DNA from: Seohaeicola saemankumensis
GTDB taxonomy: Bacteria > Pseudomonadota > Alphaproteobacteria > Rhodobacterales > Rhodobacteraceae
Reading direction: 5' to 3'
DNA: 64,000 nucleotides
NCBI RefSeq assembly: GCF_020171285.1
Contig: NZ_JAIUZI010000004.1
Coordinates: 258,832 to 322,831, forward strand
In this document: positions 8,961 to 17,017 of the stretch, piece by piece
Position numbering within the stretch: the stretch's first letter is position 1
Layout: each line of letters starts with the position of its first letter
Program-made: the position numbers and the translations under genes
The notes under the pieces: generated by a model
The model's database searches: none
What the model saw: only the letters and a program-made list of their open reading frames with translations
What the model was told of the DNA's origin: nothing

Positions 8961-9036
8961 GGGCCGGATCAGAGTAGCGTCGATCAGATAGAAGCCGGGG
9001 GCAGCGCGGGCGCGGTAACACCGGTGGCCGGAGCCA

Positions 9037-9480
9037 TCATCCGGTGCGCATCAGGTCCACGAAGGCCTTTCTCATCGAATTGCTGATCGCGACCGGGCGG
9101 CGGCTGGTGCGATCGACATAGACGTGGATAAAGAACCCGTTGGCCGAGGCGGAGTCTTCGTCGTTGCGGAACAGGCCGATTTCGTAACGCACCGAGCTGG
9201 TGCCCAGATGGGCCACGCGAATCCCGGCGGTGATGACATCGGGAAAGCCCATCTCGGCATGGTATTTGCACCCTGTCTCGACAACGAGACCAAAGCTGTC
9301 GCTGGTACGCGGGTCGAGCAGGCTGTGTTCGATCAGCCAGCCGTTAACCGCCGTGTCGAACAGCGAATAATGCACCACGTTGTTCATGTGGCCGTACATG
9401 TCGTTGTCCATCCAGCGGGTTTGGATGGTCTGGAACGCTGAAAAGTCGGAGCGGGTCGGAACCGGGGGGCGGGGTGCCAT
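9037..9480 (-). CDS. Acyl-CoA thioesterase (4HBT/YbgC-like hotdog fold)
   Basis: A 147-residue single-domain hotdog protein. It has the 4HBT signature RWMDNDMYGHMNNVVHYSLF near the N-terminus, where the Asp is the expected catalytic residue, and the length is typical. It should hydrolyse a short or medium acyl-CoA; the substrate is unknown. It is downstream of the iron alcohol dehydrogenase gene, with the stop and start overlapping as TGATG at 9478-9482, so the two are translationally coupled and probably act together. Confidence 0.85.
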   Translation of the reverse strand: MAPRPPVPTRSDFSAFQTIQTRWMDNDMYGHMNNVVHYSLFDTAVNGWLIEHSLLDPRTSDSFGLVVETGCKYHAEMGFPDVITAGIRVAHLGTSSVRYEIGLFRNDEDSASANGFFIHVYVDRTSRRPVAISNSMRKAFVDLMRTG

Positions 9481-10640
9481 CACCAGGCCGCCGTGTAGAT
9501 GTTAAAGGCATCGGTTTCGCTGACATCGCGCGGGTTGTTGACCAGCAGCCGGGTCTGCAGCATGGCGTCGCTGGCCATTTTCGCGATGGCGTCCTTTGGG
9601 ATCTCGACGTCGCGCAGGCGGGTCTGCATTCCCAGCTTTGCCGAGAGATCCGCCAGCGCGTCGATGAAACCGGCGCAGCGCGCCTGGCTGCCGTCGACAT
9701 CCGCCAGATGAGGGAAGGCGTCGGCGGCGATCTCGGCATAGGTGGCGCTGGCCTCTGGCGCGTTGAAGCGCAGCACATGCGGCAGCACCAGCGCGTTGGA
9801 CAGCCCATGCGGGATATGAAAGGTGCCGCCGATGGGATAGGCCAGCGCATGAACGGCGGCGACCGGCGAATTGGCAAAGGCCTGCCCCGCCAGCATGGAA
9901 CCCAGCAGCATGGCGCCGCGCGCGTCCTTGTTCTGGCCCTCGAAAACGGCGGTTTCGATGTTGGCCCCGAGCAATCGCAAGGCTTCGCGCGCCAGCATTT
10001 TCGACAGCGGGTTGTTGTTGGCGCTCTTGGAAGCGTAGGCCTCGATCGCGTGGACCATGGCATCGACGCCTGTGGCGGCGGTGATATGCGGCGGCAGCCC
10101 GACGGTCAGGTCGGCGTCCAGAATGGCGATGTCAGGCAGGATGACGGGCGAGGACACGCCGCGCTTTTCCTCGGCGCCGACGGTGATGATGGACACCGGG
10201 GTGACCTCGGACCCGGTTCCGGCCGTCGTCGGCACCAGAACCAGCGGCAGGCGCGGCCCCTTGGCCTGGGCCACGCCCCAGGCATCGTCCAGATCCTCGC
10301 CCGACCCCAGCAGGAGTGCCACCAGTTTGGCGACATCGAGAGAGGAGCCGCCGCCGAAGCCCACGACGCCGGTCGCGCCGGCGCTGCGCCCGGCCTCGAC
10401 CGCGGTCATCAGGGTTTCGCGCGAGGGGTCGGCTTCGACCTGGTCAAAGATCACCACCTCGTGGCCGGCGTCCTGAAGCGAGGCGATGGCGGCATCGGCA
10501 AGACCGAGGGCGCGCAATCCGGGGTCGGTGACCAGCAAGCAGGTCTTGCCCAGGACCGCGCCTGCGACCCCGGCCAGATGGGCGGCGGCCCCGGTTTCAA
10601 AAACCAGCGATTTGGTGGTGTTGAACTGGAAGGGTGTCAT
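9480..10640 (-). CDS. Iron-containing (group III) alcohol dehydrogenase
   Basis: A 386-residue NAD(P)-dependent dehydrogenase starting at the ATG at 10640. The family's nucleotide motif GFGGGSSLDVAKLVA lies near residues 95-110, followed by PTTAGTGSEVTP. The metal-site residues are seen as Asp and His in GVDAMVHAIEAY and two histidines in HALAYPIGGTFHIPHG. It oxidises an alcohol or reduces an aldehyde; the substrate cannot be told. The open frame extends 458 codons further upstream, but that part lies opposite coxC and has no family similarity. It is divergent from coxC. Confidence 0.9.
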   Translation of the reverse strand: MTPFQFNTTKSLVFETGAAAHLAGVAGAVLGKTCLLVTDPGLRALGLADAAIASLQDAGHEVVIFDQVEADPSRETLMTAVEAGRSAGATGVVGFGGGSSLDVAKLVALLLGSGEDLDDAWGVAQAKGPRLPLVLVPTTAGTGSEVTPVSIITVGAEEKRGVSSPVILPDIAILDADLTVGLPPHITAATGVDAMVHAIEAYASKSANNNPLSKMLAREALRLLGANIETAVFEGQNKDARGAMLLGSMLAGQAFANSPVAAVHALAYPIGGTFHIPHGLSNALVLPHVLRFNAPEASATYAEIAADAFPHLADVDGSQARCAGFIDALADLSAKLGMQTRLRDVEIPKDAIAKMASDAMLQTRLLVNNPRDVSETDAFNIYTAAW

Positions 10641-11045
10641 AATCGTGGTCCTTTGAATGTCAGTCCGTGCGCAAAGCCGTGTTGGAAGAGGGCATAGGCC
10701 GGGCCGCATTTGAACGGTCGGGCGCGCGCGTGCCCGCCGGTGCCTGATCTGATCTCTCCCATGCCCGCACTGTCCGGGAACTGCCGTGCCAGCACAATGG
10801 TTTCTTGACCCGTGGTCAAAAGAAACTGGGCGATATCGCGGAATTCGAGTGTCTGGTACGGAGTTCGGTCGCCGTTTGGCCGGTCGCGCGCGGATTTCCC
10901 GGCGGTCGGGCCGGTAAAAAGGCTGGACAGCCGCAGGCCGGTGGTGAAGGTGTTCGGCAAACGACGCGGCAGGAGTTCGGCGCGTTGAGTGGGAGCAGCG
11001 GTCTTGATAGACTTCCCACCGGACACCGGGGAGGGAGGAGCCGGC
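10641..11045. other. Intergenic region between the alcohol dehydrogenase gene and coxC
   Basis: About 405 bases without a convincing gene. It must hold the promoters for the divergent alcohol dehydrogenase and coxC genes. The clearest structure is a perfect inverted repeat TTGACC-N3-GGTCAA at 10805-10819. A strong purine-rich ribosome site lies at 11031-11040, just before the coxC GTG start. No clear sigma-70 promoter could be assigned by eye. Confidence 0.6.
10805..10819. promoter_or_regulatory. Inverted repeat TTGACC-N3-GGTCAA upstream of coxC
   Basis: The two 6-base arms match perfectly, with CGT between them. TTTC and AAGAAA outside the arms extend the symmetry if two A bases are bulged. 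It sits about 165 bases from the alcohol dehydrogenase start and 227 bases from the coxC start. It could be an operator for a dimeric regulator, or its left arm could serve as a -35 element. No regulator can be named. Confidence 0.4.
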
Positions 11046-12137
11046 GTGCTGGAGTTTTCGCATAACGGATGGCTGATCCTGGCGTCCTTTGCTGTCGCCC
11101 TGATGGCGGCCTTTACCGGCCTGTCGCTGACGCGCGACGCGTCGAAGGTACCGGAGGGCAAGCGCAAGCTGATCGTGGTGATGGCGGCGGTGGCGCTGGG
11201 CGGCGGCATCTGGTCGATGCATTTCGTGGCGATGCTGGGCCTGCAATTGCCGATCCAGTTCTACTATGACGCGCTGGTGACGCTGATTTCGGCGCTGCTG
11301 GCGATCCTGGTTGTCGGGCTGGCGCTGTTGATCCTGCATTTCTACCCGCGCGGAGCAGGGTCCATCATTGCGGCGGGGGTTGTCGTCGGTTTCGGCATCG
11401 TGCTGATGCATTATGTCGGCATGTTGGGCATGCGCCTGTGCCGTCCGGTCAACAGCGTTACCGATTACCTGTTGTCCGGCGTGGTTTCGGTCGCGCTGTC
11501 GGTGTTCGCGATCTGGGTGGCCTATGACCGGCGCACGCGGCGTAACATCCTGCTGGGGACGGTGTGTTTTGCCATGGCCGTGGTGGCGGTGCATTTCGTT
11601 GCCGTGACCGGGACGCAATTTGCGATGAGCGAGGCCGCCGACGTGATTGGTCCGGTGTTGAGCAACCAGAGCCTGGCGATCGGGGTTACGGTTGCGGTGT
11701 TCCTGATCTGCGGTGCGTTCCTGCTGAGCGGTGTGAGCTTTCTGGAACGCGCGGTGGTGGTGGCGGAGCCGCCAGAAAGCGCGCCGGAGCCTGTCGAGGC
11801 GGCCACCGCAGGGGTACCGTATCAGCGGGACGGGCACACGCAGTTCGTCGGGCGAAACCAGATCGCGGCGATCCGGGCCGAAGGGCATTATACGCTTCTG
11901 TATGTAGGTGGCGAAAAGCTGTTCTGCCCCTGGTCGATCAGCGAGGCGGACAGCCGCCTGGCGGCGTCCGGCTATGTCCGCACCCACCGCAGCTACCTCG
12001 TGAACCCGTCCCATGTGAGCGGCTTTGAACGGCTGAAGGACACCGGCGTCGTCTACTTCGAGGCGGTGGACTCGCTGACCAAGGTGCCGGTCAGCCGGTC
12101 GCGGCTGGCCCCCGTGCGCGAGGCGCTGGGATTGTAG
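11046..12137 (+). CDS. coxC: MHYT-domain membrane sensor with LytTR DNA-binding domain, CO-dehydrogenase regulator CoxC
   Basis: A 363-residue protein starting at a GTG (11046) five bases after a GGAGGAG ribosome site. The N-terminal 235 residues hold about seven membrane helices with three MHYT repeats: SMHFVAMLG, LMHYVGMLG and a variant AVHFVAVTG. MHYT domains are proposed to sense small gases through a metal. The last 100 residues are a LytTR domain (FVGRNQIAAIRAEGHYTLLY ... RTHRSYLVNPSHV ... VPVSRSRL), which binds direct repeats in DNA. In Oligotropha carboxidovorans CoxC and CoxH have this same layout. Here the gene lies directly upstream of coxM, so I infer it senses CO (or O2) and activates the cox operon. 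Confidence 0.88.
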   Translation: MLEFSHNGWLILASFAVALMAAFTGLSLTRDASKVPEGKRKLIVVMAAVALGGGIWSMHFVAMLGLQLPIQFYYDALVTLISALLAILVVGLALLILHFYPRGAGSIIAAGVVVGFGIVLMHYVGMLGMRLCRPVNSVTDYLLSGVVSVALSVFAIWVAYDRRTRRNILLGTVCFAMAVVAVHFVAVTGTQFAMSEAADVIGPVLSNQSLAIGVTVAVFLICGAFLLSGVSFLERAVVVAEPPESAPEPVEAATAGVPYQRDGHTQFVGRNQIAAIRAEGHYTLLYVGGEKLFCPWSISEADSRLAASGYVRTHRSYLVNPSHVSGFERLKDTGVVYFEAVDSLTKVPVSRSRLAPVREALGL

Positions 12138-12138
12138 T

Positions 12139-12191
12139 TTCGCAACTCGTGCAGCTCATTCGCAGTTCGTGCAGCACCTGTAGCGGTTGGT
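12139..12191 (+). promoter_or_regulatory. LytTR-type operator array upstream of coxM
   Basis: Three related 9-base elements occur in the same orientation with 20 and 21 base spacing: GCAACTCGT at 12142, GCAGTTCGT at 12162 and GCGGTTGGT at 12183. The first two sit inside a longer 17-base direct repeat (12139-12155 and 12159-12175, differing at two positions). LytTR proteins bind direct repeats of about 9 bases resembling WMMGTTNRK at about two helical turns; copy 2 fits best. CoxC, encoded immediately upstream, is the obvious candidate binder. The binding is inferred. Confidence 0.6.
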
Positions 12192-12276
12192 TCTTGTGGC
12201 TTAGAAACCCCTGACGAACCGCCCCATGATCTTCTCACCGGGCCGCATCAGACGGCTCATGGGAGGAGACATTCAA

Positions 12277-13140
12277 ATGATACCAGCCGGGTTCGATTAT
12301 CATCGACCCGCCGACATCGCGTCGGCGATTGCCATTATCCAGCAACACGGGGACGAGGCGCGTGTGATCGCGGGCGGGCACAGCCTGATCCCGATGATGA
12401 AGCTGCGAATGGCTGATCTGAGCCACATTGTCGACCTGCAGGCAATTGACGGTCTGAAGGGCATCACGGTTTCGGGCGGAACAGCCGATATCGGCGCGAT
12501 GGTGACCCAGAACGACCTGATCACCAATGACGACCTGGCGGCGGCCCTGCCCATCCTGCGTGAAGCGGCGCTGCAAATCGCCGACCCGCAGGTGCGGTAT
12601 GTCGGAACGGTCGGGGGCAATGTTGCCAATGGCGATCCGGGCAACGACATGCCGGGGCTGATGCAGTGTCTGGGAGCGACCTATACGCTGGCCGGACCCG
12701 ATGGCAGCCGCGAGGTGGCGGCGCGGGAGTTCTACGAGGCGGCCTATTTCACCGCCCGCGATGACGAGGAAATCCTGACCCGGATCTCGATCCCGGTGCC
12801 GGCGGCTGGGACCGGCTATGCCTACGAAAAGCAAAAGCGCAAGATCGGCGATTATGCGACTGCGGCGGCAGCGGTGCTGATCCGGGTGGAAAACGGCACC
12901 TGCACCGAGGCCTCGGTCGCGATGACAAACCTGGCCGACACACCGGTCTGGTCGCAGGAGGCCGCCGCCGCGCTGGTTGGCAGCAACCTGGACGACAACG
13001 CCCGTCAGGCGGCCGTACGCGCCGCCGTCGATGCGACCGAACCGGTTGCCGACAACCGCGGCCCCGTCGCGTTCAAGAAACATGTGGCCGCCGTGATCCT
13101 GCGCCGCGCGATTGACCGCGCCGCCGATCGCGCGTCCTGA
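12277..13140 (+). CDS. coxM: Aerobic CO dehydrogenase medium (FAD) subunit CoxM
   Basis: A 287-residue FAD protein of the molybdenum hydroxylase family, passing electrons from the CoxS iron-sulfur clusters towards the respiratory quinone pool. The two FAD-pyrophosphate motifs are visible as AGGHSLIP near residues 33-40 and [14 protein letters not shown] near residues 112-125. I start at the ATG at 12277 ([11 protein letters not shown]), eight bases after GGGAGGAG. The in-frame ATG at 12259 lacks such a site. It is the first structural gene of the coxMSLDEFG operon. Confidence 0.95.
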
Positions 13141-13153
13141 GGAGGAGACAGAC

Positions 13154-13648
13154 ATGTCAAAGATGCATGTGAAAATGACGGTGAACGGCAAGGCCGTCGA
13201 AGCGCTGGCCGAGCCGCGCACGCTGCTGATCCATTTCCTGCGCGAAGATCTGCGCATCACCGGGCCGCACATCGGCTGCGAAACCTCGCATTGCGGGGCC
13301 TGCACCGTCGATCTGAACGGCAAGTCGGTCAAGGCCTGCACCGTGTTCGTGGCGCAGGCGGACGGGGCCGACATCACCACCGTCGAGGGGCTGGTGAATG
13401 AGGACGGATCGCTTGGCGTGATCCAGGAGATGTTCCGCGAGCACCACGGGCTGCAGTGCGGGTTCTGTACACCGGGCATGATCACCCGGGCGCACCGCCT
13501 GCTGCAGGAGAACCCGACCCCGACCGAGGAAGAGGTCCGGTTCGGCATGGCCGGCAACCTGTGCCGCTGCACCGGCTACCAGAACATTGTCAAAGCGATC
13601 CTGGCCTCGGCCGATCAGCTGAACGCCCAGAAGGAGGCCGCGGAATGA
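13154..13648 (+). CDS. coxS: Aerobic CO dehydrogenase small (2x[2Fe-2S]) subunit CoxS
   Basis: A 164-residue iron-sulfur subunit carrying two [2Fe-2S] clusters. The plant-ferredoxin-like cluster uses Cys42, Cys47, Cys50 and Cys62 ([16 protein letters not shown] ... KAC). The second, helical-domain cluster uses Cys102, Cys105, Cys137 and Cys139 (CGFC ... CRCTGYQNI). It relays electrons from the Mo-Cu site in CoxL to the FAD in CoxM. The ATG at 13154 follows GGAGGAG at 13141-13147. The stop overlaps the coxL start (ATGA at 13645-13648). Confidence 0.96.
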
Positions 13649-16065
13649 AGGACGAGGTACAAACCCCCGAAGAACGCACCGCCAACCTCAAGGGGATGGG
13701 CAGTGCCCGCAAGCGCGTCGAAGACGTGCGGTTTACCCAGGGCAAGGGCAACTATGTCGATGATATCAAGCTGGATGGCATGCTGTTCGGTGATTTCGTG
13801 CGCTCGCCCTATGCCCATGCGCGGGTGGTCAGCGTCAACAAGGAGGCGGCGCTGGCGCTGCCGGGCGTGATCGCGGTGCTGACAGCCGAGGACCTTGCGC
13901 CGCTGGGCCTTCACTGGATGCCGACGCTGGCGGGGGACAAGCAAATGGTGCTGGCCGACGGCAAGGTGCTGTTCCAGGGCCAGGAGGTCGCCTTTGTCGT
14001 GGCCGAAGACCGCTATATCGCCGCCGACGCGGTGGAACTGGTCGAGGTCGAATACGACGAGCTGCCGGTGGTCGTGGACCCGTTCAAGGCGCTGGAGCCG
14101 GATGCGCCCGTGTTGCGCGAGGATATCGCGGGCAACATGGAAGGCGCGCATGGGCCGCGCAAACACAACAACCATATCTTTACCTGGGAGCAGGGAGACA
14201 AGGAAGGTACCGAGGCTGTGCTCTCCGAGGCCGACGTGGTGGCCGAGGAGATGGTCTATTACCACCGCACCCACCCCTGTCCGCTGGAAACCTGTGGATC
14301 GGTCGCCAGCATGGACAAGGTGACCGGCAAGCTGACGCTGTGGGGCACTTTCCAGGCGCCGCACGCGGTGCGCACGGTGGCCTCGCTGATCTCGGGCATT
14401 GCCGAGCACAACATTCGGGTGATCAGCCCGGACATCGGCGGCGGATTCGGCAACAAGGTGGGCGTCTATCCCGGATATGTCTGTTCCATCGTGGCCTCGA
14501 TCGTCACCGGCAAGCCGGTGAAATGGGTCGAGGACCGGATGGAAAACCTGATGTCGACCGCCTTTGCCCGCGATTACTGGATGCAGGGCAAGATCGCGGC
14601 CACGAAGGAGGGAAAGATCACCGGCCTGTGGTGCCATACCACGGCGGATCACGGCGGCTTTGACGCCTGCGCCGACCCGACCAAGTTCCCGGCCGGGTTC
14701 ATGAACATCTGCACCGGGTCCTATGACATCCCGGTGGCTTATCTTGCGGTCGATGGCGTCTATACCAACAAGGCGCCGGGCGGCGTGGCCTATCGTTGTT
14801 CCTTCCGGGTGACGGAGGCGGCCTATTTCATCGAGCGGATGATCGAGGTGCTGGCGATCAAGCTGAACATGGACGCGGCCGAGCTGCGCCGGATCAACTT
14901 TATCAGCAAGGAGCAGTTCCCCTACCAGTCCGCGCTGGGCTGGGAGTACGACAGCGGTGACTACCACACCGCGTGGGACAAAGCGATGAAGGCGGTGGAC
15001 TACGACGGGCTGCGGGCCGAACAGGCGCAACGTCTGGAGGACTTCAAGGCCGGCAAGACCCGCAAGCTGATGGGCATCGGGTTGACGCATTTCACCGAGA
15101 TCGTCGGCGCGGGACCGGTCAAGAACTGCGATATCCTCGGCCTTGGCATGTTCGACAGCTGCGAGATCCGCATTCACCCGACCGGGTCGGCGATTGCTCG
15201 TCTGGGCACGATCAGCCAGGGGCAGGGTCACGCGACGACCTTTGCCCAGATCATCGCCTCTGAGATTGGGTTGCCGGCGGATGACATCACGCTGGAAGAA
15301 GGCGACACCGATACCGCGCCATATGGTCTGGGCACCTACGGGTCCCGCTCCACGCCGGTGGCCGGTGCGGCGACGGCAATGGCGGCGCGCAAGATCCGCG
15401 CCAAGGCGCAGATGATCGCGGCCTATCTGCTGGAGGTGCACGACGACGATGTCGAGTTCGACATCGACCGCTTTGTGGTCAAGGGCGCGCCGGAGCGGTT
15501 CAAGTCGATGAAGGAGATCGCCTTTGCCGCCTACAACCAGGCGATCCCGGGGCTGGAGCCGGGGCTGGAGGCGGTCAGCTACTATGATCCGCCGAACATG
15601 ACCTATCCGTTTGGCGCCTATATCTGTGTTTTGGATATCGACGTGGACACCGGCGTGTCGGACATCCGCAGTTTCTATGCGCTGGACGATTGCGGCACCC
15701 GGATCAACCCGATGATCATCGAAGGCCAGGTCCACGGCGGCCTGACCGAGGCGCTGGCCATCGCGATGGGGCAGGAGATTGCCTATGACGAGATCGGCAA
15801 CGTCAAGACCGGGACGCTGATGGATTTCTTTATCCCGACCGCCTGGGAAACGCCGAACTATCAGACCGACTGGACCACCACACCCAGCCCGCATCATCCG
15901 ATCGGGGCCAAGGGTGTTGGCGAAAGCCCGAATGTCGGTGGCGTGCCCTGCTTCTCGAACGCGGTGCATGATGCGTTCCGGCCTTTTGGTCTGACGCAAA
16001 GCCACATGCCGCACGATCACTGGCGGGTTTGGAAGACCGCCCATGATCTGGGTCTGCACGAATGA
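13645..16065 (+). CDS. coxL: Aerobic CO dehydrogenase large (Mo-Cu) subunit CoxL, form I
   Basis: An 806-residue catalytic subunit that oxidises CO to CO2 at a molybdenum-copper site. The active-site loop reads AYRCSFR at residues 382-388, with the copper-bridging cysteine at 385. This motif separates form I (true CO dehydrogenase) from form II, which has AYRGAGR. The C-terminal catalytic glutamate region is seen in [13 protein letters not shown]. The molybdopterin-cytosine-dinucleotide binding regions [13 protein letters not shown] and [13 protein letters not shown] are present. The length matches the O. carboxidovorans enzyme (809). Start and length are unambiguous because the ATG overlaps the coxS stop. 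Confidence 0.97.
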
Positions 16066-16095: not shown

Positions 16096-16159
16096 TCTCC
16101 GCCCGGCGTGGCCGGGGAATTGAGTATTTGCAAAGAGATGAAACAGGGGGATGCGCGTG

Positions 16160-17017
16160 ATGAGCTTTGGTGAGGTGCAGGTGGCGCTGGCCGAACAGGG
16201 CTATGTCGCGGGTGACCGTCTGGCCATGGCGTTGCATCTGGCGGGGGCGCTGGGGCGGCCGCTGCTGCTGGAAGGACCGGCGGGCGTGGGCAAGACCGAG
16301 GTGGCCAAGGCGTGGGCGGCGGCGCGGGACGCGCGGCTGATCCGGTTGCAATGCTATGAGGGGCTGGATGCCAGCCATGCGATTTATGAGTGGAACTACC
16401 AGCGCCAGCTGCTGGCCATCCGTGCCGCCGAGGTGGCCGAGGAGGCGCAGCTTTTTTCCGAGCGCTACCTGTTGAAGCGACCTTTGCTGGAGGCGATTTC
16501 TTCGGAGGAGCCGGTGGTTCTGCTGATTGACGAGATCGACCGGGCGGATGAGGAGTTCGAGGCCTATCTGCTGGAGATCCTGTCGGAGTTCCAGATCACG
16601 ATTCCGGAGTTGGGGACAATTGCGGCGCAGGTCAGGCCGATGGTGATCCTGACCGCGAACGGCACCCGCGACTTGTCCGATGCGCTGCGGCGGCGGTGTC
16701 TTTATGCCTTTGTCGATTTCCCGGACCGCGAGACGGAACTGTCGATCCTGACCGCGCGGATGCCCGGGGTCGAGCCCCTGCTGGCGCGTCAGGTGGTCGG
16801 CGTGGTGCAGGCGCTGCGCCGCGAGGACATGGAGAAGGTGCCGGGCATTGCCGAGATGCTGGACTGGGCGGCGGCTCTTTCGGGACTTGGGGTGAACGAC
16901 ATGGCGCAGGCGCCCGAAGCGGTGCAGGCCAGCCTGGTGTGCCTGTTGAAGACGGCGGCGGACCGGGACGCGGCCCCGCGCGAGGTGATGGACCGTTTGA
17001 TCGGCAAGGTGGCGTGA
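16160..17017 (+). CDS. coxD: MoxR-type AAA+ ATPase CoxD
   Basis: A 285-residue AAA+ protein with Walker A LEGPAGVGKTEVAK near residue 40 and Walker B VVLLIDEIDRADEEFE. In O. carboxidovorans CoxD is a membrane-associated chaperone needed to insert sulfur and copper into the CoxL active site. An ATG at 16151 is in frame, but a GGGGG run abuts it with no spacing. The ATG at 16160 lies nine bases after that run and is preferred. The stop overlaps the coxE start (TGATG at 17015-17019). Confidence 0.92.
   Translation: MSFGEVQVALAEQGYVAGDRLAMALHLAGALGRPLLLEGPAGVGKTEVAKAWAAARDARLIRLQCYEGLDASHAIYEWNYQRQLLAIRAAEVAEEAQLFSERYLLKRPLLEAISSEEPVVLLIDEIDRADEEFEAYLLEILSEFQITIPELGTIAAQVRPMVILTANGTRDLSDALRRRCLYAFVDFPDRETELSILTARMPGVEPLLARQVVGVVQALRREDMEKVPGIAEMLDWAAALSGLGVNDMAQAPEAVQASLVCLLKTAADRDAAPREVMDRLIGKVA

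Follow-up and report, generated by a model that had tools for sequence, protein, structure and literature searches.

Kerby and Roberts are said to have described in 2012 that the RcoM1 operator at the cox genes of Paraburkholderia xenovorans is a triplet of direct repeats TTCNNGCA separated by spacers of 12–13 bases, and RcoM operators are reportedly composed of TT-NNN-G repeats placed about 21 bases apart on centre, the regulator being a haem PAS-LytTR protein. Canonical LytTR sites are presented in the main text of a 2024 paper (PMC11347149) as 9-base direct repeats that lie about two turns apart and occur as a pair. The closest described system is that of Afipia carboxidovorans OM5, for which the main text of the same paper reports that the LytTR domain of CoxC binds PcoxB in vitro with an apparent KD of ~25 nM, that efficient binding at this promoter requires three repeats, that the operator overlaps the −35 element and that in E. 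coli, as judged from reporter and gel-shift experiments, CoxC represses a PcoxB-lacZ fusion and is released by CO, with copper (PMC11347149). In that main text coxM is named twice, in the description of the cluster, and PcoxM is never named (PMC11347149). An operator of the kind considered here is already known, both from the CoxC triple repeat of Afipia (2024) and from the RcoM triplet, the former of which had not been mentioned in the original prediction.

That prediction placed three phased 9-base repeats, as a likely CoxC operator, in front of coxMSL in the window, i.e., the whole stretch of 64 kb that was analysed, and its layout is borne out by the sequence. The gap between coxC, whose stop codon ends at 12137, and coxM, whose ATG is at 12277, is 139 bases long and contains the array: GCAACTCGT at 12142, GCAGTTCGT at 12162 and GCGGTTGGT at 12183 all lie on the + strand, with the claimed distances of 20 and 21 between successive 9-mers, and the first two are indeed embedded in a 17-base repeat (12139–12155 versus 12159–12175) with 15 of 17 positions identical. 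Of the three 13-mers delimited by family comparison, LytTR-type site 1, CGCAACTCGTGCA (12141–12153, + strand), contains GCAACTCGT (12142–12150) and is kept in relatives; site 2, CGCAGTTCGTGCA (12161–12173, + strand), contains GCAGTTCGT (12162–12170) as well as TTCGTGCA and is the strongest site family-wide; site 3, AGCGGTTGGTTCT (12182–12194, + strand), which contains GCGGTTGGT (12183–12191) and is placed +21 from site 2, is the weakest both family-wide and in the window, with a site information of 4.8 bits versus 18.3 and 20.8 for the others. The TTCGTGCA of site 2 is an exact match to TTCNNGCA and, when the three sites are set against the CoxC-operator repeat TTNNNGCN / TTCNNGCA, site 2 agrees with it, site 1 (CTCGTGCA) departs from it at one position and site 3 (TTGGTTCT) does not fit. 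Like a CoxC operator, the locus has a direct repeat that recurs three times ahead of a cox gene at intervals of about two helical turns, with a conserved 20/21 spacing and a weak third member.

With the RcoM1 operator the array has in common the repeat triplet and the LytTR DNA-binding domain, and its 20/21 spacing fits the RcoM-type spacing, an exact fit of the cores (CTCGTG at 12146, TTCGTG at 12166 and TTGGTT at 12187) to TT-NNN-G being seen in the middle one only. On the other hand, RcoM senses CO by a haem domain whereas the window protein has an MHYT membrane domain, and no haem PAS-LytTR regulator was found, the neighbour being an MHYT-LytTR protein and the only other LytTR protein found in the genome having no Pfam domain besides LytTR, so neither MHYT nor PAS. 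Canonical LytTR sites resemble the array in being 9-base direct repeats with a spacing of about two turns and differ from it in forming a pair, not a triplet, and in having regulators that are not membrane-bound through MHYT. The Afipia PcoxB operator shares with the array an MHYT-LytTR CoxC and the presence, at a cox promoter, of three direct repeats, yet the array of the window lies before coxM, downstream of coxC, and ends upstream of the predicted −35 whereas the PcoxB operator overlaps this element according to the main text of PMC11347149. The identification of the array as a likely CoxC operator before coxMSL is supported by its conservation, by the third site at +21, by the MHYT-LytTR neighbour and by the first rank assigned to PcoxB in a matrix scan; as far as can be judged from sequence, the array very probably (with a probability of about 0.86) serves as the operator that controls the coxM promoter and as the place where the CoxC encoded just upstream docks.

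Lack of conservation beside coxM in relatives had been named as one of the observations that would tell against the prediction; it is not what is seen. The phased pair is present in 165 of 178 distinct regions upstream of coxM, the window itself included, at a cut-off of 17.9 which, like the site consensus, was chosen after inspection of the data, with shuffles and the Afipia scan as guards; none of the 173 shuffled regions (one each) reaches this value, their average being 12.9 and the highest score 15.6. The relatives consisted of the best 80 of 546 CoxC matches from named genomes and of 394 genomes drawn evenly from the same family; among the latter, CoxC is matched with E values no higher than 1e-20 in 99 (weakly in 4 of these, with 29–35% identity) and coxL with E values no higher than 1e-280 in 102. 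When both strands of the whole locus are considered, the best phased pair falls between coxC and coxM in 88 of 96 loci, the other eight being cases in which coxM does not adjoin coxC or the contig ends and including the probable duplicate pairs L040/L085 and L078/L105. Of the 164 loci analysed, 112 have a distance of 20 from site 1 to site 2 and 52 a distance of 21 (L206, which scores 21.0 and has 393 bases upstream, is among the 165 but outside the 164); for a third site +21 is the only enriched downstream offset among 13–61 (z 8.8), and for an extra site upstream of the pair no offset stands out in the 164 loci.

Not all of the 13 misses (L033, L118, L194, L120, L116, L117, L119, L189, L197, L202, L203, L204 and L205) are of the same nature. 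L033 was counted as such on account of a split coxM match and a wrong anchor, and its pair does sit in the coxC–coxM gap, while the coxM start is absent from the contig in L118 and L194, and in L120 there are 72 bases upstream; these four are included in the 13. Of the 12 class-level regions fetched from outside the family, seven score at or above the cut-off, although in L200 the pair is remote from its customary position, and the regions of the Afipia plasmid (18.0) and of the Bradyrhizobium plasmid (19.7) also reach it, the array being conserved in Rhodobacterales and Hyphomicrobiales. As to the class-level misses, no LytTR was found in the stretches of L203, L204 and L205, and that of L197 and L202 is 38–41% identical; these last two, together with G226 and G016, are the loci of divergent CoxC proteins and score under the cut-off.

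In the family survey, 97 of the 102 coxL genomes could be assessed; no judgement was possible for G353, G101, G109 and G007, and G007 and G737, in which coxL is at the contig start, were left out of the fetched loci. Where coxC adjoins coxM the array is found in 90 of 91 genomes, the exception being G226, whose CoxC LytTR is 38% identical, and where the two genes do not adjoin it is found in 3 of 3. Genomes that can serve as CoxC-less controls are few, the scan having found no CoxC in the remaining three: G082 has neither the array nor any LytTR match; in G016 a divergent MHYT-LytTR gene adjoins coxM and there is a divergent repeat with a spacing of 20 bases; G108 (L117), a 97% complete genome, has the cox cluster and a pair which, with a score of 17.8, is just below the cut-off and is perhaps a relic after the loss of coxC.

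Nothing points more strongly to a CoxC operator in the roseobacter array than the rank of the CoxC-bound PcoxB. A three-site matrix derived from 151 roseobacter-type coxM promoters, from which the window, Afipia, Bradyrhizobium and the other-family loci were excluded, was used to scan both strands of the 18.3 kb Afipia cox region and places PcoxB first (20.0) and the coxC–coxM gap second (14.8), the next place scoring 0.3; in 12.8 kb of Bradyrhizobium the coxC–coxM gap comes first (20.3), followed by a place at −4.9. An earlier matrix that included five other-family loci had given 19.9, 14.7 and 2.2 for Afipia, with the order unchanged. From the second rank of the coxC–coxM gap a second CoxC operator is predicted in this model organism, Afipia OM5, one that the main text of PMC11347149 does not name.

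In the register of the matrix the PcoxB sites have the cores TTCATG, TTGGTG and TTGGGC at 21/21 spacing, and the hexamers TTGATG and TATCGT, which begin 40 and 64 bases after site 2 (+40 and +64), are found close to the promoter slot described below for coxM. The repeats published for PcoxB, which judging from the oligonucleotides given in the methods of PMC11347149 would be TTACCGCC, TTTGGGCA and TTGCGGCA, with starts 29 and 26 bases apart, are overlapped by the 21/21 array but would represent a different register. Since the first published mutation also alters the 21/21 array, at position 2 of its second 13-mer, the loss of repression reported in the main text of that paper fits both registers.

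Directly upstream of the array, as had been claimed, an MHYT-LytTR protein is encoded: the product ending at 12137 matches PF03707 and PF04397. The gene of this sensor-regulator, coxC, extends from 11046 to 12137 on the + strand, in an ORF listed from the GTG at 10989; its start is uncertain, since relatives align from residue 8–21 of the longer ORF, and one of them from residue 2, and translation could plausibly begin later, at the GTG at 11046, which follows GGAGGGAGGAGCC. Among 169 aligned CoxC sequences, some of which are not independent of one another, the three histidines of the MHYT motifs are unvaried in 169/169 and both the H-R pair of LytTR and the R of VPVSR are invariant. The array is followed, on the + strand, by coxM (12277–13140), encoding the medium (FAD) subunit of CO dehydrogenase and presumed to be the first gene of the regulated operon, by coxS (13112–13648 for the ORF as listed, the true start being probably later), encoding the 2Fe-2S subunit, by coxL (13648–16065, start putative), encoding the large subunit with the AYRCSFR signature of form I, and by the gene of a coxD-like MoxR-type AAA ATPase (16151–17017), whose best NCBIfam match is below the family cut-off and whose place in the gene order is as in Afipia. 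Before coxC, neither the 407-aa ORF at 9474–10697 nor the reverse ORF at 9344–10063 has a Pfam match, and coxB was not recognised by Pfam matches within 8961–11045.

Could these repeats have an origin or a function other than that of a CoxC operator at coxM? An origin by chance, or as the leftover of a duplicated stretch, might be suggested by the strong likeness in the window between only two of the three sites, but its probability is practically negligible, having already been ruled out by the conservation of the array in Rhodobacterales and Hyphomicrobiales. Indeed, when the gap was shuffled 4000 times with its dinucleotides preserved, such a 17-base repeat at offsets 18–22 never arose and an equally good three-fold array of 9-mers arose once; the repeat at 12139 is the sole instance in the 64 kb of an identity of at least 15/17 at offset 20 or 21, and a degenerate two-site pattern (CGCANYTSRTG twice, 9–10 apart) has a single match in the 5.1 Mb genome, which is this array, and none when the pattern is reversed as a control. 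Two further explanations, both very improbable, draw on the fact that the anchor site begins at most 32 bases from the coxC stop in 63 of 87 loci, and so would be within a read-through transcript: that the array belongs to coxC, as part of its 3′ end or for its feedback control, and that the repeats work at the RNA level, in a transcript reading through from coxC into coxM, where they would attenuate or direct processing. However, it is to coxM, and not to coxC, that the array is attached. Its position is steady with respect to coxM and not to the coxC stop, the distance between site 2 and the coxM ATG having a median of 112 (5–95% 104–134) while the coxC–coxM gap varies up to 3.8 kb, and it is kept at coxM in all six assessable cases in which coxC lies apart (G327, G278, G006, G394, G395 and G396; in G397 the stretch ends too early for an assessment). 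Of these separate coxC genes, that of G006 is 3.8 kb away, and some others are far off in the genome. The array is also kept at coxM in G661, whose MHYT-LytTR gene is ~8 kb from coxL, and remains beside coxM in a Shimia MAG (L012) in which an extra reading frame separates the two genes. Conversely, no pair reaches the cut-off near eight separate coxC genes (highest score 16.8), and a second target upstream of coxC, sought in 107 stretches of 700 bases around and before the coxC start, some of them from the same genome twice, was discarded when none attained the cut-off (highest 16.2). A function in RNA is further opposed by the conserved 20/21-base helical phasing, by the persistence of the array with coxM where coxC has gone from its side and by the lack of an unusual RNA fold in the window (z −0.62; 45 of 200 shuffles fold equally well).

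As to the identity of the binder, a LytTR protein other than CoxC, either the second one of the genome or an RcoM-like one, is an improbable candidate. The genome, in which a single CoxC was found, does encode a second protein with a LytTR domain, 287 aa long (G000:C13:48423-48677, L211), and a LytTR frame of comparable size is present in G108, which has the near-cut-off pair but lacks CoxC. Nevertheless, the second protein is encoded on a contig other than that of the cox genes and is devoid of MHYT and PAS, the array accompanies the CoxC genomes in the family survey and the matrix singles out the very promoter known to bind CoxC in Afipia.

A promoter can be predicted between the array and coxM. 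A positional scan with the consensus sigma-70 hexamers reveals an enrichment of −35-like sequences at +40/41 and of −10-like sequences at +63–65 from site 2; in the promoter statistics, comprising 163 loci (L200 left out), the best promoter, if allowed to float freely, falls in this slot in 59 loci, 53 of which have the 20-base array spacing, or in 38% by weight versus 7% in shuffles (maximum 12.5%). Only 24 of 164 loci have a TTG in the interval from +39 to +42, and in six of eight outgroup loci it is exactly at +40, a count in which L195, L200 and L202 are not included. In the window the slot would correspond to a −35 TAGAAA (12202–12207, + strand), a poor match, and, 17 bases after it, to a −10 CATGAT (12225–12230, + strand). 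These elements are followed by a ribosome-binding site for coxM, GGGAGGA (12261–12267, + strand), a sequence which, according to a motif search, starts 11–16 bases before coxM in most loci; an expectation-maximisation motif search for the −10 was abandoned, having returned the ribosome-binding site and then a diffuse motif. The predicted slot puts the −35 ~7 bases after site 3, as against an overlap with the operator, and a start near 12237 would centre the three sites near −88, −68 and −47. Being just upstream of the predicted −35, they would occupy the position usual for activators.

In the mechanism that can be envisaged, CoxC of the window would occupy the three sites, the weak third one included, with LytTR domains that follow each other at two helical turns and all sit on the same face of the DNA, and the array would end ~7 bases before the −35 of a sigma-70-type promoter driving coxMSL and the maturation genes. 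The protein would sense CO and copper, in that CO would reach the copper-binding MHYT domain in the membrane and thereby change the grip of CoxC on the array, so that the operon is switched.

In which direction the switch would operate is a matter of nearly balanced odds. The only experiments concerning direction are those carried out on Afipia PcoxB with an E. coli reporter and gel shifts, in which, according to the main text, repression is relieved by CO (PMC11347149). Repression at coxM too may be given an even chance; activation has a somewhat smaller yet substantial one, and sites located before the −35 would be equally appropriate for an activator. A more far-reaching proposal, which can be put forward only tentatively, is that CoxC acts, in an RcoM-like manner, as an activator or dual regulator at PcoxM (from ~−88, −68 and −47), that the register of the repeats published for PcoxB is wrong, the array at work there being the 21/21 triple ending upstream of the −35, and that the repression seen in E. 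coli is an effect of the foreign polymerase or of the construct.

With respect to what was known, the new elements are a conserved site at coxM, a proposed alternative register of the repeats in PcoxB and the prediction of a promoter with the sites just upstream of its −35; no report of a coxM-proximal CoxC operator was found among the open-licence papers searched. A DNA-site consensus thus becomes available for a family of membrane-bound CO sensors, checked by a scan that recovered the sole known bound promoter, and the coxM promoter is indicated as a conserved target of CoxC. Furthermore, the question of whether CO oxidation in the native hosts, marine roseobacters included, is under the control of an activator or of a repressor is turned into a simple promoter experiment.

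A few minor observations may be added. A search for further targets in the same genome with the loose pattern TCGTG-N15/16-TCGTG was discarded, the pattern being found in 34 places versus 45 for its reversed form; of the 33 places other than the array, three (L207–L209) were judged by eye to be coding, with ORFs listed for L207 only. A 9-base inverted copy, ACGAACCGC at 12214–12222, is the reverse complement of the site-like GCGGTTCGT and lies between the predicted −35 and −10; it was considered as a fourth site and rejected, a similar stretch having been seen elsewhere, by eye, in L058 and L112 only. In the third MHYT motif of CoxC (window residue 201) the Met position is occupied by Val in 106 and by Met in 54 of the 169 aligned sequences, and by Met in Afipia, the His being unvaried. 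In Shimia abyssi and Roseovarius (L046, L063, L064 and L073) coxC lies apart from coxMSL, and the extra reading frame that separates coxC from coxM in the Shimia MAG appears, by eye, Hint-domain-like.
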